Part shown: positions 3,758-34,080 of the stretch, piece by piece
Position numbering within the stretch: the first letter of the stretch is position 1
Layout of the letters: each line of letters opens with the position of its first letter
NCBI GenBank assembly: GCA_903847195.1
Contig: CAINCZ010000052.1
Location: 1 to 34,990, forward strand
Source of the DNA: an uncultured Acidobacteriota bacterium
Lineage (GTDB): Bacteria > Acidobacteriota > Terriglobia > Terriglobales > CAINCZ01
DNA: 34,990 bases
Direction: 5' to 3'
Notes under the pieces: model-generated
Database searches by the model: none
What the model saw: the letters and a program-made list of their open reading frames with translations, nothing else
What the model was told of the DNA's origin: nothing
Position numbers and translations under genes: made by a program

Positions 3758-3987
3758 AAGACTATGAATGGGGGCAGACCGCGACTGTGCCACCGTCAAG
3801 TGACGTTCACGGATACAGCGGGATCGACCTCGGCCACGCTGGCCATCGGCACTGCGGTACCGCTGTGAAGGTCCAATTTCTCAGCCGCGTTCCTGGAAGT
3901 TAATCTACTCAAGCGGACCGCGCTGTTCGTGGATGTTCATCAAGATCACGAAGGCGGGCCGGGAACAGGTCGCTGATACGCCGAGGC

Positions 3988-4024
3988 CCCACCCTCGCGG
4001 TCCGCAGTTGGCCGCGTGGGTGGG
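3988..4024. repeat. Palindromic repeat, CCCAC...GTGGG type
   Basis: CCCACCCTCGCGG pairs with CCGCGTGGGTGGG with a few mismatches. It lies seven bases past the stop of the glycosyltransferase at 4031 and could serve as its 3' hairpin. Confidence 0.5.
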
Positions 4025-13268: not shown

Positions 13269-15251
13269 TTACTGCCCGCGCTTCCAATTCATCAACTCGC
13301 CCAGGGTAGCGCTGGAGCCGTCGCTGTGCTGCTTGTAGTTCTCGACCTCGTGCCGGCTGGCTTCTTCGCCGACGGCGCGGATGGAGAGGCCGACCTTTTT
13401 CTCGGCCGGGTTCATCTTGATGATCTTGAACTCGTAGTCGTTGCCGGGTTCAAGCTGCATCGGCTGCTGGTTGGCGTCGGTGGCCTCGGAGTTGTGGCAG
13501 AGGCCTTCGACTCCCTCAGCGATCTCGACGAAAGCGCCGAAGCTGGCGACGCGGAGTACCTTGCCGTGAACCACGTCGTTGACGCGGTGGTTCTGGAAGA
13601 AGGTATCCCAAACGTCGGGCTCAAGCTGCTTGACGCCGAGCGAGAGGCGGCGATTTTCCGGCTCGATGGCCAGCACCTGCGCCTTGACGCGGTCACCCTT
13701 TTTCAGCACTTCGGAAGGATGCTTGACGCGCTTGGTCCAGCTCAGGTTGCTGACGTGCACGAGGCCGTCGATGCCGTCTTCGATTTCGATGAAGGCGCCG
13801 AAGTCGGTGAGGTTGCGCACGCGGCCTTCGACGGTGGAGCCGATCGGATACTTGTCGTGCAGCGACTCCCACGGGTTGGTCTCAAGCTGCTTGAGGCCGA
13901 GGGAGATGCGGCGTTCCTGGGGATTGACGTTGAGCACCACGGTCTCAAGGGTGTCGCCGACGTTGACGATCTTCGAGGGGTGCTTCATGCGCTTGGACCA
14001 GGTCATTTCGCTGACGTGGACCAGGCCTTCGATGCCCTGCTCGAGTTCGACGAACGCACCGTAGTCGGTGACGCTGATGACGCGGCCGCGGACGTGGGCG
14101 CCGATCGGGTAACGCTCGGCGGCGTCGAGCCACGGATCAGGCGTGAGCTGCTTGAAGCCGAGAGAGACGCGCTGCTTGTCCTTGTCGAACTTGAGAACCT
14201 TGACCTGGATGTGGTCGCCGACCTGAACGAGATCGCGGGGATGCGTGAGGCGTCCCCAGCTCATGTCGGTGATGTGCAGCAGGCCGTCGATGCCGCCGAG
14301 GTCCACGAACGCACCGTAGTCGGTCAGGTTCTTGACCACGCCGGTCAGCACCGCACCTTCGTGCAGGCTTTCGAGAGTCAGGCCGCGCTTCTCCGAGACT
14401 TCCTCTTCGAGGAGCTGCTTGCGCGAAACGACAATGTTGCCCCGCTTCTTGTTGAGCTTGATGACGCGGACTTCAAAGCTCTGGGCGCGCAAACCTTCGA
14501 GGTTGCGCACCGGGCGGAGGTCCACCTGCGAGCCGGGCAGGAAGGCACGGGCACCGAGGATGTCCACGGTGAGTCCGCCCTTGATGCGCTCGACGACGCT
14601 GGCCTTGATGGGGGTCTTGTCGTTGTAAGCCTTGTCGATCTCGTCCCAGGCGCGCAGACGCTGCGCACGCTGGTGGCTGAGCCGGATGTAGCCCTCTTCC
14701 GTCTCGCCCTTGTCGACCATGACATCGATTTCCTGGCCCGGCTGCACGGTGACAACACCGTCGGGACCAGTGACTTCGGAGATCGGCACCATGCCTTCCG
14801 ACTTCTGGCCGATGTCAACTACGACTTGGGTGGCGGTAACCTTCAGGACTGTGCCCTTGATGACGCGCTCTTCTCCGCTGGCCTGTTCGGGCTCGGGATT
14901 GGAGTACGCTTCCAAGGCGGTGGCGAAATCCATCGACTCCATGCCGCCCTTGTCGTCGTCGTCGCTCATGTCGAACGTTTCGACTTCAGGTTCGGGCTCG
15001 GGCTGAGGAATGGGTTCCGGCGTGTTGGGTTCGAGGTTCATGGGCGTATCGGAGGTTGTGAGTTCAGTAGACGTAGGAGCACCCTGCAAGGAAGAATGAA
15101 GTTCAGAACTTGTGGTCGGCGCGGATTCCGGAGCCCGGTGTTCGCTCGCCAAGGAAGGCGGCGCAGGTTGCGACGCGGAACCTGTATCGATCGGGGCCGG
15201 CGTTTCGGGAGCGCCGGAGTCGGCGCGGTTATTATCTTCGTACAAAAGCAT
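13269..15251 (-). CDS. rpsA: 30S ribosomal protein S1 with long acidic N-terminal extension
   Basis: 660 residues from ATG 15251 (GGCGGA six bases upstream; an in-frame GTG at 15266 is the alternative). Six S1 RNA-binding domains follow one another from about residue 129 to 630. Each starts with a G-x-V motif (IKGTVLKV, IKASVVER, LTGVVKNL, VRGRVISV, VEGRVRNL, VHGKVLRV) and several carry DYGAFV or DFGAFI. S1 binds mRNA on the small subunit and aids initiation on structured or weakly ribosome-bound messages. The first 125 residues are low complexity: Pro/Ser/Thr/Glu-rich and then an acidic SDDDDKGG. E. coli S1 (557 residues) lacks this extension. A near-consensus promoter and a structured leader lie upstream. 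Confidence 0.93.
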   Translation of the reverse strand: MLLYEDNNRADSGAPETPAPIDTGSASQPAPPSLASEHRAPESAPTTSSELHSSLQGAPTSTELTTSDTPMNLEPNTPEPIPQPEPEPEVETFDMSDDDDKGGMESMDFATALEAYSNPEPEQASGEERVIKGTVLKVTATQVVVDIGQKSEGMVPISEVTGPDGVVTVQPGQEIDVMVDKGETEEGYIRLSHQRAQRLRAWDEIDKAYNDKTPIKASVVERIKGGLTVDILGARAFLPGSQVDLRPVRNLEGLRAQSFEVRVIKLNKKRGNIVVSRKQLLEEEVSEKRGLTLESLHEGAVLTGVVKNLTDYGAFVDLGGIDGLLHITDMSWGRLTHPRDLVQVGDHIQVKVLKFDKDKQRVSLGFKQLTPDPWLDAAERYPIGAHVRGRVISVTDYGAFVELEQGIEGLVHVSEMTWSKRMKHPSKIVNVGDTLETVVLNVNPQERRISLGLKQLETNPWESLHDKYPIGSTVEGRVRNLTDFGAFIEIEDGIDGLVHVSNLSWTKRVKHPSEVLKKGDRVKAQVLAIEPENRRLSLGVKQLEPDVWDTFFQNHRVNDVVHGKVLRVASFGAFVEIAEGVEGLCHNSEATDANQQPMQLEPGNDYEFKIIKMNPAEKKVGLSIRAVGEEASRHEVENYKQHSDGSSATLGELMNWKRGQ

Positions 15252-15395
15252 TTCTGTTCCGCCCACTGACCGTTGTTAAGTCGTGGGCACCGTCAAATGA
15301 GACTGCTGGCTTAAAGCCTTTGATCCAACGGATCGCCCGGCTAGCGGGCAAGGATTGAAGACCAGCGGTCGGCGCTCGGGGACACCCCGAGGGGC
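15252..15395 (-). promoter_or_regulatory. Structured 5' leader of rpsA
   Basis: From the predicted transcription start near 15395 to the ATG is about 145 nt. The leader opens with a perfect CTCGGGG/CCCCGAG hairpin (15376-15392) and also contains GATCC-GTT-GGATC. Autogenous control of rpsA through its leader is known in E. coli. A similar role here is inference. Confidence 0.5.
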
Positions 15396-16015: not shown

Positions 16016-18626
<2,611 letters not shown>

Positions 18627-20122: not shown

Positions 20123-22246
20123 ATGATTGAAGCCGAAACCGGCACAGGTACCAGTGTGAGCGCGGGTTCCACCGCGCCTTGTTCGGAGCAGGGCGGAGGC
20201 GGCAGACGGGCCCCCGTCGTGCTGTTTGCGTCTTCCATTTTTCTCTCGGCTTTCCTGCTGTTCGAGATCGAACCGGTGATTGCGAAGGCGATCCTGCCGC
20301 GCTTCGGCGGCTCGTCGGCGGTGTGGAGCACCTGCCTGCTGTTCTTTCAAGTTGTCCTGCTGGCCGGGTATGTCTATTCGCACTGCCTTTGCCAGTACCT
20401 GACGGCGCGGATGCAGGTATGGGTGCACATCCTGCTGCTGGCGGTGAGCGCGGCGGTGTTTGCGACGCAGCAGGGTGCGGTGGCGGGAGCAACCGTGGGC
20501 GATCCGGTGTGGCTGGTGCTGCGGACGCTTGGGATTTCGATCGGGCTCCCGTATTTTCTGCTCTCAAGCACGAGTCCGCTGATGCAGGCGTGGTATGCCA
20601 GGACAAGCCGCGCGGCGGCGCCCTACCGGCTGTATGCGCTGTCGAACGTGGCGTCGGTGGCGGCCTTGCTGGCCTATCCCGTGCTGATTGAGCCGTACAT
20701 CGGGCTGGGAAGCCAACTGCGCGTGTGGCTGGTGCTCTACGTGGTGTTCTGCGTGCTGACCGGGGTGATTGCGTGGCGGAGCCGCCTGTTGCCGGCGCTG
20801 CCGCCGGTGAGCGTGGAAGAGACGGCCGCGCAGGCGCCGCCGGGCGCGGTCAATCGCGTGCTGTGGGTGCTGCTGCCGGCATGCGCGTCGGTGATGCTGC
20901 TGGCGATCACGGCCTACCTGACGCAGGACATCGCCTCGGTGCCGTTCCTGTGGGTGCTGCCGCTGTGCGCCTACCTGATGACCTTCATCTTCGCCTTTGA
21001 GACGCCGCGATTTTATAACCGCGCGGTGTTCCTGCCGCTGTCGCTGGTGGCGTTGGCGGGCGCGGCCTACCTGCTGAGCCAGAGCGCGCTGAAGTTCAAG
21101 ACCGTGCACATCATCGCGATGGTGGTGGGCGGGCTGTTTGTGCTGTGCATGGTGTGCCACGGCGAGCTGGTGCGGATCAAGCCAGCGCCGCGGTACCTGA
21201 CGGCGTTCTACGTGATGATGTCGATCGGCGGAGCGCTGGGCGGGATCTTTGTGGGATTGATTGCGCCGCGGGTGTTTCACTGGACGTGGGAGATGCCGAT
21301 CGGCTTGACTGCCTGCCTGGCGCTGATGGTGCTGATCCTGCTGCGCGGCTACCGGGTATTCTTCGCGCCGCCGGCCGGGAAGGTGCTGGCGGTGGTGATG
21401 CTCGTGGCGGTCGTCGGCTACGGTGCGCTGCTGCGATCCGAGATCCGCGGGTTCATCCAGGGCTCACTGGTGACGGCGCGCAACTTCTACGGGCTGCTGC
21501 GGGTGCAGGACTACGAGGACGAATTGGGAACGCGGCGGCAACTGGTGCACGGCAATATTCTGCATGGCGACGAACTGATCGCCGACGAACACCGGCGCAC
21601 GCCCACCACATATTATTGCGAGGCCAATCCGGTCGGTCAGGTGCTGAAGGGCAATCCGTCGCCGCAGAAGGTTGGCCTGGTCGGGCTTGGTTCGGGAACG
21701 CTGGTAGCGTATGGACGGCCGGGCGATACCTACCGCGTGTACGAGATCAATCCGATGGTGCTCAAGCTGGCGCGGGAGCAGTTCTTCTACCTGGGCGACA
21801 CGCAGGCGAAGCTGGACGTAGTGCTCGGCGATGCGCGGCTATCGTTGCAGGACGAAGCGTCGCAGCAGTTCGACGTGCTGGCGGTGGATGCTTTTTCCGG
21901 CGACTCGGTGCCGATTCACCTGCTGACGCGCGAGGCGTTTACGGCCTACTTCCGGCACCTGAAGCCGGGCGGCGTGCTGGCGATTCACATCTCGAACCGC
22001 TACCTGGACCTGGGGCCGGTGGTGGGACGCGCGGCCGACAGCTTCGGCATGCTGGCGGTGCATTACTCATTTGAGGCTCCGGAAGACGACGGCAACGTGT
22101 GCTCGAATGCGGAGTGGGTGCTGATTACGAGCAAGGAGAAGGCGGACGATCTGCCCGACTACGACGAGGAAGATGTGCTGCACGGGCGGGCCGACGTGCC
22201 GATCTGGACGGATGACTTCTCGAGCTTGTGGAAGGTGTTGCGGTAG
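20123..22246 (+). CDS. Fused membrane transporter-like / spermidine synthase-like protein
   Basis: 707 residues from ATG 20123; the frame opens earlier but family similarity begins here. After a Gly/Ser/Thr-rich start, residues about 35-450 form many membrane helices (FASSIFLSAFLLFEIEPVIAKAILP at the start). The C-terminal 240 residues are a soluble Rossmann domain like spermidine synthase: VGLVGLGSGTLVAYG, the acidic YRVYEINP, LGDARLSL and FDVLAVDAFSGDSVPIHLLT. This layout matches the family annotated as fused MFS/spermidine synthase. Spermidine synthase transfers aminopropyl groups, but members of this fusion family are uncharacterised in substrate. It stands alone, and a strong hairpin terminator follows. 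Confidence 0.85.
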   Translation: MIEAETGTGTSVSAGSTAPCSEQGGGGRRAPVVLFASSIFLSAFLLFEIEPVIAKAILPRFGGSSAVWSTCLLFFQVVLLAGYVYSHCLCQYLTARMQVWVHILLLAVSAAVFATQQGAVAGATVGDPVWLVLRTLGISIGLPYFLLSSTSPLMQAWYARTSRAAAPYRLYALSNVASVAALLAYPVLIEPYIGLGSQLRVWLVLYVVFCVLTGVIAWRSRLLPALPPVSVEETAAQAPPGAVNRVLWVLLPACASVMLLAITAYLTQDIASVPFLWVLPLCAYLMTFIFAFETPRFYNRAVFLPLSLVALAGAAYLLSQSALKFKTVHIIAMVVGGLFVLCMVCHGELVRIKPAPRYLTAFYVMMSIGGALGGIFVGLIAPRVFHWTWEMPIGLTACLALMVLILLRGYRVFFAPPAGKVLAVVMLVAVVGYGALLRSEIRGFIQGSLVTARNFYGLLRVQDYEDELGTRRQLVHGNILHGDELIADEHRRTPTTYYCEANPVGQVLKGNPSPQKVGLVGLGSGTLVAYGRPGDTYRVYEINPMVLKLAREQFFYLGDTQAKLDVVLGDARLSLQDEASQQFDVLAVDAFSGDSVPIHLLTREAFTAYFRHLKPGGVLAIHISNRYLDLGPVVGRAADSFGMLAVHYSFEAPEDDGNVCSNAEWVLITSKEKADDLPDYDEEDVLHGRADVPIWTDDFSSLWKVLR

Positions 22247-22270
22247 GGAACTGCGCGATAGAAGACCGAC

Positions 22271-22313
22271 GCCCCGTCCCGGCCACAGATGCCGGGATGG
22301 GGCATTGATTTTT
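22271..22313. terminator. Bidirectional terminator between convergent genes
   Basis: GCCCCGTCCCGGC (22271-22283) pairs with GCCGGGATGGGGC (22291-22303) with one wobble pair, followed by ATTGATTTTT. It lies between the fusion gene (plus) and ahpD (minus). Confidence 0.8.
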
Positions 22314-22324
22314 GTGCGCGGAAA

Positions 22325-22873
22325 CTAAGCCGTTGCGGAACCGGCGGCGATGGCGGCTTCGCCATCGAGGGCGGCGGCGATGGCATGGATGACGGCGGCG
22401 ATGCGTACGGCGGTGAGGATCATCTCTTCGCTGACGCCCTTTTCGCGCAGGACTTTTTCGTGCGCGTCCAGACACATCCCGCAGCCGTTGATGGCGCTGA
22501 CGGCGGTGCTCCAGAGTTCGAAGTCGAGCCCAACGGTTTGCGAGCGCAAGACATTCATGCGCAGGCGCGCGGGCAGGGTGCGGTACTTCTCGTTGGCGAC
22601 GAGATGAAGGAATCGGTAATAGATGTTGTTCATGCCCATGATGGCGGCGGCAGCCTTGGCGGCGTCGAGCGCTTCGGGCGTGAGGTGGGTGGCGGCCTCG
22701 GTGAGGGCGGCGGCGGTCAACTGCGGGTTGCGCGAGGCGAGGGCGGAGACGGCGACGGTGCCCCAGAGCTGCTGCGCCGAGAGGTCGGTCTGCTGGCGGA
22801 CGAGGCTGGAGTAATTGAGCTTGAGGTCGCGGGCGTATGCGGGCAGGGATTCGACTAGCTGATCGAGCGTCAT
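22325..22873 (-). CDS. ahpD: Alkylhydroperoxidase AhpD
   Basis: 182 residues from ATG 22873, with GGAG seven bases upstream. All-helical carboxymuconolactone-decarboxylase fold with the AhpD active site INGCGMCLDAHEK: Cys131, Cys134 and His138, plus Glu119 upstream, close to the Glu118/Cys130/Cys133/His137 set in Mycobacterium tuberculosis AhpD. AhpD reduces oxidised AhpC, linking it to lipoamide-type electron donors in the cytosol, and has weak peroxidase activity itself. AhpC lies just upstream in the same direction. No ahpF is present here. Confidence 0.92.
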   Translation of the reverse strand: MTLDQLVESLPAYARDLKLNYSSLVRQQTDLSAQQLWGTVAVSALASRNPQLTAAALTEAATHLTPEALDAAKAAAAIMGMNNIYYRFLHLVANEKYRTLPARLRMNVLRSQTVGLDFELWSTAVSAINGCGMCLDAHEKVLREKGVSEEMILTAVRIAAVIHAIAAALDGEAAIAAGSATA

Positions 22874-23055: not shown

Positions 23056-23098
23056 TCCCCACCCTAGCTCCGCCCTCTGGGCTCCGCGAGGGTGGGGC
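23056..23098. repeat. Palindromic repeat, CCCCACCCT type
   Basis: CCCCACCCT (23057-23065) and AGGGTGGGG (23089-23097) with a longer GC-rich loop, followed by CACCGG. It lies 21 bp past the ahpC stop. Confidence 0.7.
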
Positions 23099-27997: not shown

Positions 27998-29368
27998 ATG
28001 TCGACCCCCGACCAACTCGGACTGCATTTCGGCCCCCCAACGCGACGCGTATGGACGGTGGGCGAGCTGATGGCAGCGGTGCGCGGGCAACTGGAGCGAG
28101 AATACGCAGACGTCTACATCGACGGCGAGATCTCGAATTTCACGGCGGCTTCGTCCGGACATCTTTATTTCACCCTGAAGGAAGGCGCGGCGCAGGTGCG
28201 GGCGGTGATGTTCCGTTCGCAGGCGAGGCTGCTGCGGTTCCGCCCGGAGAACGGCTTGCAGGTGGTGGCGCGCGGGCGGGTGACGGTGTACGAGGCGCGC
28301 GGCGAGTTGCAGATTTCGGTGGAGCATCTGGAGCCGAAGGGCGCAGGCGCGCTGCAGGTCGCGTTTGAGCAGCTGAAGGCGAAGCTGGGAGCCGAGGGTC
28401 TGTTTGATGCGGCGCGCAAGAAGCCGCTGCCGGCGCTGCCGCGACGGATCGGGGTGGTGACCTCTTCGGGGGGCGCGGCGCTGCACGACATTCTGCAGGT
28501 GCTCGGAAGACGGCATCAGTCGCTGGGCGTACTGATTTATCCGGCGCAGGTGCAGGGCGCGGCGGCCGTGGGCGAGGTGGCGGCGGGAGTGAACTACTTC
28601 AACCGCACGCGCGAGGTGGACGTGATCGTGGTGGCGCGCGGCGGGGGTTCGCTCGAAGACCTGGCGGCGTTCAACGATGAGGCGCTGGCGAGGACGGTGG
28701 CGGCATCCGAGATTCCGGTGATCTCGGCGGTCGGGCACGAGGTTGATTTCACGATCTGCGACTTCGTGGCGGATCTGCGGGCGCCGACTCCGTCGTCGGC
28801 GGCCGAGATGGTGGTGCGCTCCGAGCGCGAACTGCTGGAGCAGGTGGAAGGAATCCACCTGCGGCTTGCGCGCGGCATGCGGTACCAGATGTTGATGGCG
28901 CGACAGGCGCTGACGGAGCTGGCGCAGCACGGCGCGTTTGCGCAGATGCGGAGCCTGATCGGGCGCAGGCAGCAGCGAGTGGACGAGGCGGGCTTTCGCC
29001 TGACGCAGGCCGAGCGGGAGATGCTGTCAGGGCAGCGGCAGCGGCTGGAAGTAGCCAGCGCGCGGCTGCGGCAGCTCGACCTGCGGCGGCAGATTGCTAA
29101 TTCGAGGCAGGCGCTGGAGGCGCGCGAGCGCACGCTGGCGGCTGCGGCGCGGCGGCTGTTGTTCGCGGCCAGAGCGCGGCTGGCGCAGTCCAACGGCAAA
29201 CTGGATGCGCTTTCTCCACTGAATATCCTGGAGCGTGGCTATGCGCTGGTATTTGACGGTGAAGGGAAGCTGGTGAAGGATGCGGCGCAGGTTCAGCGTG
29301 GGGATCCGATTCGGGTACGGCTGGCGCGGGGACAGGTGGAGGCCGCCGTCAAGGGAACGGGAGGCTGA
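27998..29368 (+). CDS. xseA: Exodeoxyribonuclease VII large subunit
   Basis: 456 residues from ATG 27998 (AAAGG seven bases upstream; a TTG two codons earlier is also possible). The N-terminal OB fold (VWTVGELMAAVRGQLE...DVYIDGEISNF) is followed by the nuclease core (RRIGVVTSSGGAALHDIL; VDVIVVARGGGSLEDLAAFNDE; ISAVGHEVDFTICDFVADLRAPTPSSAAE). A long coiled coil and a C-terminal ILERGYALVFD segment complete it. ExoVII degrades single-stranded DNA together with many copies of the small subunit XseB. No xseB lies next to it. Confidence 0.95.
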   Translation: MSTPDQLGLHFGPPTRRVWTVGELMAAVRGQLEREYADVYIDGEISNFTAASSGHLYFTLKEGAAQVRAVMFRSQARLLRFRPENGLQVVARGRVTVYEARGELQISVEHLEPKGAGALQVAFEQLKAKLGAEGLFDAARKKPLPALPRRIGVVTSSGGAALHDILQVLGRRHQSLGVLIYPAQVQGAAAVGEVAAGVNYFNRTREVDVIVVARGGGSLEDLAAFNDEALARTVAASEIPVISAVGHEVDFTICDFVADLRAPTPSSAAEMVVRSERELLEQVEGIHLRLARGMRYQMLMARQALTELAQHGAFAQMRSLIGRRQQRVDEAGFRLTQAEREMLSGQRQRLEVASARLRQLDLRRQIANSRQALEARERTLAAAARRLLFAARARLAQSNGKLDALSPLNILERGYALVFDGEGKLVKDAAQVQRGDPIRVRLARGQVEAAVKGTGG

Positions 29369-29512
29369 AAGACAATAGCGCCGAGCGGAAATAGTCAGGC
29401 TGGTTCAAGGCAAAACGTGGCAACATAGAAGTATCGCTATGGTGGCATTAGTGTGGCCGGCGGCGCCCCTGAAGGGCTCGCGTGGAAGTGGCGGCCCGCG
29501 AGGAGGCAGTTT

Positions 29513-30652
29513 TTGCACCAGAGAGTTTCCTACCTGTGGAATGAGCCGGGGGCGGCCGCTGGTTACCAGACTGGCGTGTCGCTGCACGGGCATACGAACC
29601 ATTCCCGGGAGTGCCTGGCCTTTGTGGCCGACCTGGGCAAGGAAATACCGCTGATCCGCTGGGCGCTGGAGCGCGGCGAGAAACAGGCGATGGTAGGCGG
29701 AGTAAAGATAGACTTCCGGCGCTGCTTCTGGACGCCGCCGATGTCACCGCGTGCGGCCTACGGGCTGGAATCCGGGCAGATTACCGAGCAGCTGCAATTA
29801 AACGCGATCGTTTCGCTGACCGATCACGAGAACATCCACGCACCGTTGCGGCTGCGCATGCTGCCGGAGTCGAGCGAGGCGCCGATTTCGGTCGAGTGGC
29901 CGCTGTGGCTGGAGGGGTCGGAGATTCACCTGGGCGTCCACAACCTGCCGGAGAAAGACGCAGGACCGATCGTAGCGGCGATGAACGAGTGCACGCAGCG
30001 GCGCGATGATGCGGGTACGGCTGAGTTGTTGCGGGCGCTTGACGCGATGCCTGAAGTGCTGATCGTGCTGAACCATCCGATGTGGGATCTGCGGCGCACG
30101 GGACGGCCGCGGCTGCTGCGGGTGTTGACTAATTTCATGCAGCGCCACGGGTACGCGATTCACGCGATGGAGTTGGGCGGGCTGCGCAGCTGGGACGAGA
30201 ACCAGCGGGCGGTGAATTTTGCCGAGCAGTGGGGACGCCCGGTGGTTTCCGGCGGCGACCGGCATGGCTGCGAAGCGAATGCCTGCGTGAACCTGACGCG
30301 GGCCGCCAACTTTGCGGAGTTCGCGGACGAGGTGCGGCAAGGGTGCAGCCGGGTGCTGTTCATGCCGCAATACGCCGAGCCGCTGGTGATGCGCTACATC
30401 CGCGCGGTGAACGACATCGTGGGCAAGTATCCCGACAGTCCCCTGGGCGAGAACTGGGACGAGCGGGTGTATCATCCGGGGCGCAACGGGGAAGAGCGTC
30501 CGATCTCAGAGCTGTGGGGCAAGACGCCGGCCTACCTGGGAGTGGTGCGGATGCTGTTCCGGCTGATGGAGACGCGTCCGATGCAGCGGCTGGCGCAGTC
30601 GCTGGGGCAACCGGAGCAGCCGTTTGAGTTCACCTGGACAGGCAAGGCGTAG
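29513..30652 (+). CDS. Uncharacterised PHP-type metal-dependent phosphoesterase
   Basis: 379 residues from TTG 29513, chosen because AGGAGG lies six bases upstream; the frame is open 60 bp further. A full set of PHP metal-ligand motifs is present: LHGHTNHS (His25, His27), SLTDHEN (Asp104, His105), GSEIHLGVHNLP (Glu137, His143), LNHP (His188) and GGDRHG (Asp249, His251). PHP enzymes hydrolyse phosphoesters at a trinuclear metal site; substrates range from DNA ends to small sugar phosphates. The C-terminal 120 residues (about 260-379) look like an extra helical region. No neighbour identifies the substrate. The fold call is good and the function is open. Confidence 0.75.
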   Translation: MHQRVSYLWNEPGAAAGYQTGVSLHGHTNHSRECLAFVADLGKEIPLIRWALERGEKQAMVGGVKIDFRRCFWTPPMSPRAAYGLESGQITEQLQLNAIVSLTDHENIHAPLRLRMLPESSEAPISVEWPLWLEGSEIHLGVHNLPEKDAGPIVAAMNECTQRRDDAGTAELLRALDAMPEVLIVLNHPMWDLRRTGRPRLLRVLTNFMQRHGYAIHAMELGGLRSWDENQRAVNFAEQWGRPVVSGGDRHGCEANACVNLTRAANFAEFADEVRQGCSRVLFMPQYAEPLVMRYIRAVNDIVGKYPDSPLGENWDERVYHPGRNGEERPISELWGKTPAYLGVVRMLFRLMETRPMQRLAQSLGQPEQPFEFTWTGKA

Positions 30653-30690
30653 GAAGCTTCGCACGGGGCGTCCTCTCGCCTTCGTGAACA

Positions 30691-30718
30691 TTTCCACACA
30701 AAAGTAAATGAGTATAAT
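30691..30718 (+). promoter_or_regulatory. Promoter of the candidate ncRNA
   Basis: TTTCCA (30691-30696), 16 bases, TATAAT (30713-30718) in an AT-rich patch within GC-rich DNA. Predicted transcription start near 30725. Confidence 0.7.
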
Positions 30719-30956
30719 GCGTCCTGGCCGCAAGCCGCGGCTCACGCTGCTGCGCTGGCGGGCGGGAGCTATGCAGAGACCTTAGGCCGTGCCGGTGAGC
30801 GGGCGGTGGCAGGGAGGCAACTCACCTTAACCCTAGCCCGTGCACCACCGGGATCTCGGCGCATCGCTGCACAGAAACAGGAAAGCACTCCCGTAATGGA
30901 TGAAGGAAATCGACCTACCGCGAGAAAGGAGTTGTGCGGCCGAGTACGAACAGCGC

Positions 30957-30962
30957 TATAAT
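30957..30962 (+). promoter_or_regulatory. Possible internal promoter (-10 TATAAT)
   Basis: A perfect TATAAT sits exactly between the closed 5' domain and the hairpin array. The nearest -35-like box, TTGTGC, is 19 bases away, so it is weak. It may split the locus into two RNAs. Confidence 0.35.
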
Positions 30963-31215
30963 CGCCTCGCCCAGGGAAACCGGGCGAGACCTAGTGCACA
31001 CCACCGGTGCGCACATCGATGCAAAACGCATCACCTCGCGGCGGTCTGGAGACGAGCCGTTCCAGAACAGCGGAACGATGGGGAGGTAGGAGCTATAGAA
31101 AACGACTACCTAGAACACGCTGCATGCCACCGTGCAGTCGCAGGAACATTCGAGTAGGCTCGCATAGCGAACGCCCTCTTCTCCTGTTGAGAAACAATGT
31201 TTCCTCGCGACTGCA

Positions 31216-31245
31216 GCGGTGGTGTGAATACCGCAAGAGTTTTTT
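31216..31245 (+). terminator. Terminator of the candidate ncRNA
   Basis: GCGGT (31216-31220) and ACCGC (31230-31234) form a short stem, followed by AAGAG and six T (31240-31245). It directly abuts the 14-bp helix. Confidence 0.6.
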
Positions 31246-31349
31246 CGATCTTCCTCTTCTTCTCCTTCCTGCCTGATTGAATCCCGCAAATATTTGAGCT
31301 CCGGCTGCATTGCGTCTCTGCGCCTGCCGCGCGGGAGGGCAGAGACGAA

Positions 31350-31383
31350 ATCCCCACCCTGCGCCTGTGCAGAGGGTGGGGAT
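31350..31383. repeat. Palindromic repeat, ATCCCCACCCT type
   Basis: ATCCCCACCCT and AGGGTGGGGAT pair perfectly over 11 bp. It lies 25 bp past the alcohol dehydrogenase stop. Confidence 0.7.
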
Positions 31384-31407
31384 TGGATACCACGGGTAAT
31401 AAGGGAA

Positions 31408-32610
31408 TCAGCGTGCCGCAGCGTTGACCAGCGGGACGCCCATGGCCGATTGCAGGATGCCCAGCATCTGCGGGAAGTTGACGGTGCGTGGATTGGTGCG
31501 GGCGGCGATGCTGGGAACGGACTCGCGGGCCATCGCTTCCAGATCGGTGGCCTTGACCCCGGCTTCAGCCAGGTTGGCCGGCATGCCGACGTCGCGATTG
31601 AGCTTGCGGATGGCGATGGGCGCGCGGACAGCAGCCTCGCCGACCGAAAGTCCCGCGACGTGTTCGCCCAGCGCGGCGGCGATTTCGGCGAAGCGCTCGG
31701 GCTCGGCGATCAGGTTATATTCGCAGACGGCAGGCAGCAGGAGTGCGCAGCAGACGCCGTGCGGCAGATCGCAGATGGCGGCCAGTGGGCTGGCGATGGC
31801 GTGAACGCAGCCGAGGCGTCCGTTGCTGAAGGCCATGCCGGCCATGTATTCGGCGTAGGCCATGCGGTCGCGCGCCAGCAGATTGGCGCCGTTGGCATAC
31901 GCAGGACGCAGCCATTGGCCGATCAGCTTGATGGCGCCGACGGCCAGCGCGTCGGTAATCGGAGTGGACGCGGTGGAGACATAGGTTTCGACGGCGTGGC
32001 TGAGCGCGTCCAGGGCGGTGGAGGCCGTCAGGGAGGGCGGCATGCTGAGCATCAGCCGGGGATCGTTGATGGCGACCCGGGGGGTGATGCGGGGATCGAC
32101 GATGGCGACCTTGTCATGATTGGCGGCGTTGGTGATGACGGCGGCACGGGTGGCCTCGCTGCCGGTTCCGGCCGTGGTGTTGATGGCGATCAGTGGGGGC
32201 AGCGGCTTCTTGACCGTGCCCATGCCGGCGTAGCTGAGAATGTCGCCGCCATTGGAGATGACGATGCCGGCGCCCTTGGCGCAGTCGTGGGCGCTGCCGC
32301 CACCGAAGGAGACGAGGGCGTCGCACTGGTTCTGGCGATAGAGTTCGGCGGCCGCGTGCACGTTGGCGTCGGTCGGGTTGGGTTCAACTCCGTCGAAGAC
32401 GGTGACGCGCAAGCCGGCGGACTCGAACTGGGCAGCCATGGGCTGCACCATGCCGAGCTGGCTGAGGACCGTGTCGGTGATGAGAAGTATATGAGTAGAT
32501 CCGAGCATCTTGGCCTGCGCGGCGGCTTCGCGGGAGCTGCCGGGGCCGGTAATGGCGACGCTGGGACAGAAGAACGAGAAGATTGCATCGGCGAGCGCAA
32601 CGGGTGGCAT
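31408..32610 (-). CDS. Iron-type (group III) alcohol dehydrogenase with Ser for the conserved active-site His
   Basis: 400 residues from ATG 32610, with GGAGGGG seven bases upstream. The fold and NAD site (FGGGSAHDCAK, residues 102-112; NTTAGTGSEATRAAV) are typical. All four metal ligands are present: Asp201 and His205 (LDALSHAVETY), His270 (GCVHAIAS) and His284 (LPHGVC). The extra His that usually follows the third ligand by four residues (His267 in E. coli FucO) is Ser274. The enzyme would interconvert an alcohol and an aldehyde with NAD. It lies 81 bp downstream of an MFS permease in the same direction, which may import the substrate. Confidence 0.88.
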   Translation of the reverse strand: MPPVALADAIFSFFCPSVAITGPGSSREAAAQAKMLGSTHILLITDTVLSQLGMVQPMAAQFESAGLRVTVFDGVEPNPTDANVHAAAELYRQNQCDALVSFGGGSAHDCAKGAGIVISNGGDILSYAGMGTVKKPLPPLIAINTTAGTGSEATRAAVITNAANHDKVAIVDPRITPRVAINDPRLMLSMPPSLTASTALDALSHAVETYVSTASTPITDALAVGAIKLIGQWLRPAYANGANLLARDRMAYAEYMAGMAFSNGRLGCVHAIASPLAAICDLPHGVCCALLLPAVCEYNLIAEPERFAEIAAALGEHVAGLSVGEAAVRAPIAIRKLNRDVGMPANLAEAGVKATDLEAMARESVPSIAARTNPRTVNFPQMLGILQSAMGVPLVNAAAR

Positions 32611-32691
32611 GGTTTTTCCCCTCCAGTTGATGGGCGGCGGCGATCCGGAGGACGGACCGCCGCCGCCGAGAATTGAGAACTGCAACCGGCG

Positions 32692-33945
32692 CTACTGGGC
32701 CGGGGCCGAAACTGCGTCCGCCTTGGGCTCCCCGCCGCGTTTGACCGCCGGGTAGCGATACGGTCCCAGGCAGGCCAAGATGACGATCGAGACCGCCAGC
32801 AGGACCTCCATGATCAGCAGGCCGGGCCCGTAGGTGCGCTTCAGCTGGAAGGACCAGCCGAGCATGTTGTTGCCCACGGCGTTGGCCATGATGGCAAAGC
32901 CGAACATCAGGCCGTGCATGGCGCCGAAGGATCGGATGCCGAAGTAGCGGGAGATGATGAAGGCGATCAGGTCGATCTCGGCGCCTACGCCCATGCCGAG
33001 CAGCATGGGGCCGAGGGCGATGCCGAGGCCGTCCATGCGGAATCCGAGAATGGCGATGCCGACCATGGGGCAGAGCAGGAAAAAGATCACGATGTAGGGG
33101 GCGAAAATCCGGTCGAGCAGATAGCCGGCGACGATGCGCCCGACGATCATGGCAATGCCGGCGCCCGACATGACGCCGACGGCGGCGCCGAGGGGGATGC
33201 CGCGGTCGGTGAGCATGGGCACGACGTGGATCAGCGTGCCATTGATGGCGATGAGTGAGAAGAAGAAGGCAAAGCAAACCGCCCAGTATTTGCCGCTGCG
33301 CAGGGCCTCGGAATATTCAAGGCCGGGGAAGGTATTCGCCGCGGGGCCGACGCGGAGGCGGGCGGCCTTCAACGCGGGCGTTTCTCCGAACCAGAGCGCC
33401 ACCGGGATGAAGGACAGCACGAGGATAGCGATGCCGATGCCGATGTATCCGCCGCGCCAGCTGAAGTGCTGGAGCAGAATGCGCGCGTACTGCGGCAGCA
33501 GGGCGGTGCCGACGCCGACTCCGGCGAGGGCGAGTCCGAGCGCCAGGCCGCGGCAGTCGTCAAAGCGCGAGGAGATCATCTTGGAGTAGGCGGTGGGCGT
33601 CTGGCCCGCGCCGACGATGCCCTGCAAGGCGAACATCGCCAGCAGCATGACCACCGAGGACTGCAGCAGCGAGAGCGAGGCGGTGACGATGGCGAACAGC
33701 ACGAGGAAGGGAAGCAGGACCGGGCGGACGCCGTGGCGGTCCATCATGCGTCCCAGGAAGGGGATCATGATCGCCGTGGTGATGTTGGCGCAACTCATGG
33801 CGGTGGAGATGACGCCCCGGCCCACGTTCAGGTCCTGAGCCAGCGGCTTCATGAACACACCGGTTGCGAATACCTCGACTGCACCCTGACCGACAATCAG
33901 GGCAAAAAACGATCCGACGACGACCCACCAGCGGCTCTTGAACAT
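32692..33945 (-). CDS. MFS transporter (oxalate/formate antiporter or monocarboxylate type)
   Basis: 417 residues from ATG 33945, with GAGGGG six bases upstream. Twelve membrane helices can be traced. The loop between helices 2 and 3 has the MFS motif GRMMDRHGVRPVLL. The first helix region (VVVGSFFALIVGQGAVEVFATGVFMKPLAQDL) and the overall pattern resemble the oxalate/formate-antiporter and monocarboxylate-porter branch of the major facilitator superfamily. It probably moves a small organic anion across the inner membrane. It is likely co-transcribed with the alcohol dehydrogenase. Confidence 0.85.
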   Translation of the reverse strand: MFKSRWWVVVGSFFALIVGQGAVEVFATGVFMKPLAQDLNVGRGVISTAMSCANITTAIMIPFLGRMMDRHGVRPVLLPFLVLFAIVTASLSLLQSSVVMLLAMFALQGIVGAGQTPTAYSKMISSRFDDCRGLALGLALAGVGVGTALLPQYARILLQHFSWRGGYIGIGIAILVLSFIPVALWFGETPALKAARLRVGPAANTFPGLEYSEALRSGKYWAVCFAFFFSLIAINGTLIHVVPMLTDRGIPLGAAVGVMSGAGIAMIVGRIVAGYLLDRIFAPYIVIFFLLCPMVGIAILGFRMDGLGIALGPMLLGMGVGAEIDLIAFIISRYFGIRSFGAMHGLMFGFAIMANAVGNNMLGWSFQLKRTYGPGLLIMEVLLAVSIVILACLGPYRYPAVKRGGEPKADAVSAPAQ

Positions 33946-34080
33946 GGACAACCCCTCATCTTGGATTTGCAGCGCGTTCTCGTGCAGGGATTTGGTACTG
34001 AGCCGCGAATTATATCGCGCGCACGCGGATTTGCAATGGGGGCGGATTTCCGGGCAGAGGGCGGCGGCGGGGCCGGCCGC

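Follow-up and report, generated by a model that had tools for sequence, protein, structure and literature searches.

The RNAs OLE, ROOL and GOLLD are hundreds of nucleotides long. They have been described as 'ornate, large' RNAs, and covariation support for them comes from genomic and metagenomic sequences (PMC12286853). For Acidobacteria, another paper lists Acido-1 (RF01686) and Acido-Lenti-1 (RF01687) as ncRNA candidates that are not cis-regulatory (PMC2864571). Here, we analyzed a candidate locus in a stretch of 34,990 nucleotides from an uncultured Acidobacteriota bacterium, referred to below as the window. Like OLE, ROOL and GOLLD, the candidate extends over hundreds of nucleotides and is predicted to contain many helices and junctions. 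It differs from them in being a single sequence, in reaching the gathering score of no Rfam family, and in having only about 330 nucleotides that are clearly structured; the window matches neither the Acido-1 nor the Acido-Lenti-1 model. We observed at this locus a convergent gene geometry, a promoter match and an excess of folding. The explanation we favor, with a confidence that falls just short of even, is a stand-alone structured ncRNA gene confined to a lineage of acidobacteria for which sampling is poor, and whose transcription, strand, 3' end and function we infer.

The convergent gap and its promoter-like site

The locus occupies an intergenic gap of 755 bp (30653-31407) on which, in agreement with the original prediction, both flanking genes converge, with stop codons at 30652 (plus strand) and 31408 (minus strand). 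The upstream gene (29453-30652, plus strand; the 379 aa of its database entry, P0001, place the start at 29513) encodes a hypothetical protein that has no match in Pfam or NCBIfam, nothing credible among PDB sequences (one match, E 1.5) and no relative in viral contigs. On the other side, a gene for an iron-containing alcohol dehydrogenase (Fe-ADH; 31408-32685, minus strand) ends into the gap, and beyond it lies an MFS transporter gene. Defence-system models gave no match among seven neighboring ORFs. The homologue searches covered two ORFs inside the gap, 30900-31154 (plus) and 31109-31393 (minus), and found no protein homologue at E 10 or better; an additional ORF of 89 aa is located at 31007-31276 (plus). 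In the open frame 30900-31157, the translation AIENDYLEHAA spans the hairpin 31084-31111 (within 31081-31157). It bears what we take to be a faint resemblance to a tmRNA tag, and ARAGORN finds no tmRNA.

By protein comparison, the host belongs to the acidobacteria and has no close relative in the genomes searched: the XseA of the window found matches in 378 of the 396 phylum genomes, with a top identity of 66%, and the best public relative of the upstream protein, after P0001 itself, is 67% identical (P0002), followed by P0003 at 66% and by P0004 and P0005 at 61%. The relatives of the upstream protein come from assemblies labelled Acidobacteria, Terriglobales, Acidobacteriaceae, Terriglobus or Bryobacterales.

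A sigma-70-type promoter-like site, TTTCCA-16-TATAAT, is present at 30691-30718 (plus strand) in an AT-rich island, where it had been predicted. It has 10 of 12 consensus matches with a perfect -10 element, and it starts 39 bp past the final base of the upstream stop codon. This is the only promoter-like site within 30500-31500; one such site alone is unsurprising, since 0.3 +/- 0.6 are expected at the scan threshold. In the whole window, five sites on both strands, this one included, show at least 10 of 12 matches with spacers of 15-19. The score is informative here because two of the others sit just upstream of ORFs: 34036 (minus), at a distance of about 60 bp from ORF 32692-33951, and 15430 (minus), at about 135 bp from ORF 13269-15266, these ORFs bearing MFS and S1 domains, respectively. 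The promoter-like site falls in one of the five clusters of 33-bp stretches with a GC content of 30% or less in the window. A second perfect TATAAT is found at 30957-30962 (plus), within the folded core described below, and the scan gave it no -35 partner.

Fold, strand and 3' end of the candidate RNA

Folding was evaluated by z-scores relative to dinucleotide-preserving shuffles. The 531-nt stretch 30720-31250 has a z-score of -4.07, with none of 100 shuffles as good. A core at 30918-31244 (plus strand) folds far better than its shuffles (z -6.17, 0 of 100), whereas the 5' part, 30725-30890, shows no fold excess (z +0.17). The excess of folding is limited to roughly the extent of this core. 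For the ncRNA of about 520 nt that had been proposed, the 3' two thirds are structured; the first 190 nt or so are not unusually structured, and the 3' end is uncertain. In the 5' part, a hairpin at 30719-30769 is weak alone (z -1.8, 13 of 300 shuffles), and a second hairpin domain at 30772-30871 has a z-score of -1.25 (31 of 300).

Four consecutive plus-strand elements are predicted in the core. Core A (30918-31041; z -5.3, 0 of 300 shuffles) is a multibranch domain closed by CCGCGAG/CTCGCGG; its hairpins 30966-30988, 30994-31014 and 31018-31032 have pair probabilities of at least 0.96, and a weak one is added at 30928-30957. Core B is a hairpin at 31045-31066 (z -2.25, 6 of 300), and core C (31068-31122; z -2.8, 3 of 300) is a hairpin with an inner helix, 31084-31089/31106-31111. 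Core D (31123-31226; z -7.4, 0 of 300) consists of a bulged stem of 28 pairs, 31123-31150/31196-31226, leading to a three-way junction with two hairpins. The 14-bp helix with a single bulge described earlier (31133-31146/31201-31215) exists as a part of this stem. Pair probabilities along the stem range from 0.32 to 1.00 (0.9999 at 31140/31208), and its absolute stability is unexceptional, since a set of 2684 windows of 104 nt contains 33 (itself included) that equal or exceed it. An internal duplication between 30832-30879 and 30990-31028 was considered and rejected, 42 of 1000 shuffle pairs being equally good.

Besides forming the foot of the long stem, the segment 31213-31226 has two other possible partners. 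Pairing with 30997-31010 would create a long-range helix (30997-31226, plus strand; 14 nt, 93% complementary) that competes with core A and core D, and pairing with 31230-31234 would create a terminator-like hairpin. In the folding models this choice of partner could signify alternative states. When the first 8 pairs of the long-range helix were forced, the whole fold became about 11 kcal/mol worse, and forcing the terminator-like hairpin incurred a penalty of about 8 kcal/mol; a single state should therefore dominate. A possible closing helix, 30898-30913/31245-31260 (spanning 30898-31260, plus strand), requires an RNA extending past the T-run, and the probability of its pair 30911/31247 varies from 0.01 to 0.98 with the stretch folded.

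The hairpin and T-run end that had been predicted do exist, as an element at 31216-31245 (plus) composed of a hairpin at 31216-31234, the spacer AAGAG and a T6 run at 31240-31245. As a terminator-like site this element is weak, in contrast to the good promoter-like site: its hairpin is predicted at -8.8 kcal/mol and is separated by five bases from the T6, one such site was found in 30500-31500 versus 0.7 in shuffles, and in full folds the pairing probability of the hairpin is about 1e-6, with its 5' arm sequestered by the long stem. The 3' end of the candidate RNA is thus uncertain.

As the minus strand of the core (30918-31244) folds about as well (z -6.14) as the plus strand, folding energy cannot assign the strand. 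The minus-strand fold contains 20 G-U pairs versus 10 in the plus-strand fold; together with the similar z-scores, this counts against a plus-strand RNA or, at the least, does not favor one. Adenine makes up 43% of the unpaired bases on the plus strand and 24% on the minus strand, compared with a background of 31 +/- 6% (192 windows, at least 5 of which exceed 43%). Neither the purine share of unpaired bases (0.63, background 0.51 +/- 0.13) nor the fraction of A that stays unpaired (0.62, background 0.59 +/- 0.07) is remarkable. AT skew across 30750-31124 (0.28-0.41) is the strongest within the profiled region, 29000-33000. The promoter and the A-rich unpaired positions speak for the plus strand.

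Searches for relatives

BLAST searches with the RNA yielded no credible relative in 13 genomes (best per-genome E 0.010), 298 genomes of the order (best E 7.8e-4), 150 of the family (0.0011), 396 of the phylum (3.2e-4) or the genus mates (4 and 2), and no match in plasmids and phages. The best matches were all short, from 17 to about 65 bases. Candidates were scored per listed genome, at most two in the order and phylum sets and at most four in the family set. The genome sets overlap and none includes a genome known to match, so that an empty answer alone shows nothing. We also built single-sequence covariance models of three parts, R1 (30917-31042), R2 (30771-30872) and R3 (31044-31227); R1 and R3 recover themselves in the window as a control. 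R1 had a best E of 0.12, which is not credible, in searches of 300 and 41 genomes (the value coming from the set of 300), R2 found no credible relative in 300 and 17 genomes, and R3 found nothing at E 0.5 in 39 genomes.

All 15 R1 and R2 loci from the 300-genome searches lie in stop-free frames of at least 364 aa (two of the loci being one sequence). We inspected 25 additional loci, namely the best 4 of the 37 matches in the 13-genome BLAST, all those from the order, family and phylum BLAST and from R1 against 41 genomes, and four viral ones. Stop-free frames of at least 227 aa contain 24 of them, and the other (L014) lies in an RNase P RNA; the remaining 33 of the 37 matches have E 0.09 or worse. 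Exact 17-18-mers occurred in 2, 0 and 2 viral contigs, all four in stop-free frames of at least 228 aa.

Gene order was compared in two ways. For 13 relatives of the upstream gene (best 46%), flanking sequence of up to 10 kb contained none of the 7 other window ORFs tested, and the xseA neighborhoods of 7 of the 8 genomes with the nearest XseA (G048 was omitted, its gene lying near a contig end) contained none of the 17 other window proteins tested. These comparisons revealed no synteny and hence no orthologous gap suitable for alignment. The negative result applies to the genomes covered, at the sensitivity employed; with the nearest genomes at about 66% in XseA, the best relative of the upstream protein at 67% and no synteny, it is weak evidence of absence beyond them. 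No title naming this locus was found in the open-access literature, which does not imply its absence from print.

Competing explanations and the favored reading

An unlikely explanation is that the gap contains a DNA-level feature without a functional RNA, such as palindromes that have accumulated there, the decayed remains of a mobile element, or an array for recombination or termination between convergent genes. That both strands fold alike and that no relatives were found would fit it, and so would strong folding in other stretches of the window. Background windows of 531 nt, 100 in number and taken every 700 bases on both strands, had a mean z-score of -0.35 (sd 1.5); the candidate scored -3.64 in this comparison, and three windows outside the gap scored lower (2801 plus, 2801 minus and 9801 minus). 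A scan of 318 windows of 327 nt with 30 shuffles each gave the core -7.23 on the plus strand and -4.58 on the minus strand, and one window, 10247 minus (-7.26), beat the core. The next strongest places outside the gap were 10247 plus (-6.69), 1745 (-5.52 and -4.84), 22237 (-4.71), 2835 (-3.82) and 18095 (-3.79). Repeated palindromes lie inside windows 10247 and 18095, 1745 has a palindrome of its own (1921-1963), and 2835 includes the edge of one, so that repeated palindromes explain some of the strong folding elsewhere (two of five places) and not all of it. The stretch 22237-22563 (plus; z -4.71) is without any listed palindrome.

The window is also rich in REP-like palindromes, CCCCACCCT...AGGGTGGGG or near variants (1546-1586, 2802-2842, 3986-4017, 18281-18321, 23057-23097 and 31349-31384), which fold strongly as the core does. 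The last of these, AATCCCCACCCT...AGGGTGGGGATT at 31349-31384 (no strand assigned), is in the same gap, outside the core, and resembles the others. Beside it, downstream of the Fe-ADH stop codon, there is an inverted repeat, ATTGCGTCTCTGC/GCAGAGACGAAAT, at 31309-31351. Further families of repeated palindromes are 10395-10432/18222-18259/18793-18830/19942-19979 and 10454-10500/22982-23028, and a 180-nt direct repeat, 1540-1719/2796-2975 (82% identical), has one palindrome inside. However, the core has no sequence in common with the palindromes among the families listed and no repeat connects it to other parts of the window (the best match has E 0.077, and none of the 20 repeat families listed, out of 32, has a copy in the core). 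Its several distinct hairpins in a nested multibranch arrangement and the promoter upstream of it likewise argue against a DNA-level feature.

Still less probable is that the stretch belongs to the mRNA of the upstream gene, as a structured 3' UTR that protects this mRNA or yields a 3'-UTR-derived sRNA from an internal promoter. In favor of a 3'-UTR origin, no terminator-like site was found from the stop codon at 30652 to the promoter, nor indeed before the core, the sole one in 30500-31500 being 31216-31234; the short distance from the stop codon to the promoter points the same way. Against it stand the good promoter inside the gap and the 20-kb xseA neighborhoods of the 7 genomes, which contain no relative of the upstream gene, so that nothing shows that this gene and the RNA travel together.

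We consider it improbable that the locus represents a new large multi-domain RNA class of an unsampled acidobacterial lineage, without relatives in Rfam, in which alternative pairing of 31213-31226 would serve as a conformational switch or the fold as an RNP scaffold.

It is very improbable that the locus is a highly diverged version of one of the large RNAs already known (RNase P, tmRNA, group I or II intron, or retron RNA). The comparison of the gap with all Rfam models, proposed as a check in the original prediction, was carried out and found no family at its gathering score, and none in Rfam 15 reached its threshold in the whole window. At E up to 10, an 851-base stretch gave no match in the gap, the whole window gave four (E 0.5-7.4), all outside the gap, and a 581-base stretch gave two weak hits on the minus strand, at E 5 and 7.3, to unrelated families and far below their gathering scores. 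Rfam 15 includes models for 6S, SRP, group I and II introns, OLE, ROOL and GOLLD; none of these matched, nor did Acido-1. ARAGORN detected no tRNA or tmRNA, and no Rfam match to tmRNA was obtained. The bacterial covariance models recognized no RNase P RNA in the gap and gave 280.5 bits (RF00010) to the positive control, the RNase P RNA L014 of genome G002. The failure to recognize RNase P, tmRNA, SRP or 6S RNA by their landmarks was therefore borne out, as was the broader description of the locus as structured, unrecognized and, given the convergent genes, not a leader. Two observations would favor a diverged known RNA. The segment 30875-30907 matches the same G002 RNase P RNA (33 nt, 85%), but it overlaps a stretch that is an insertion in that RNA when compared with the family consensus, and was rejected as chance. 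The end pairing 30898-30913/31245-31260 has what we presume to be a likeness to retron ends, but the neighbors encode a hypothetical protein, Fe-ADH and an MFS transporter, and no reverse transcriptase domain was found among the neighboring genes scanned. A sponge RNA sequestering CsrA/RsmA, of the CsrB/RsmZ type, can practically be dismissed, since the 13 GGA motifs within 521 nt are no excess (composition alone predicts 12.1, and 216 of 500 shuffles contain at least 13) and are not concentrated in loops, 2 being fully unpaired when 22 of 68 background windows have at least 2.

For the stand-alone ncRNA gene that we favor, the following course can be proposed. Transcription would start near 30725, driven by the promoter at 30691-30718, and the transcript would stop close to the T-run at 31240-31245 or past it. 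A leader-like part would comprise the first 190 nt or so, and the core of about 330 nt (30918-31244) would fold as a multibranch domain and a long bulged stem. Since the next downstream gene is on the opposite strand and so is not open to control in cis, a riboswitch or attenuator is unlikely, and the most likely role of the RNA would be that of a trans-acting folded scaffold that binds protein or oligomerizes.

Currently a single sequence without relatives, the locus is a credible candidate for an orphan RNA gene, for which the promoter and the fold allow a cheap and concrete test. If it is transcribed, and if relatives yet to be sampled conserve it, a large orphan RNA would join the candidates from Acidobacteriota, of which, to our knowledge, there are few.
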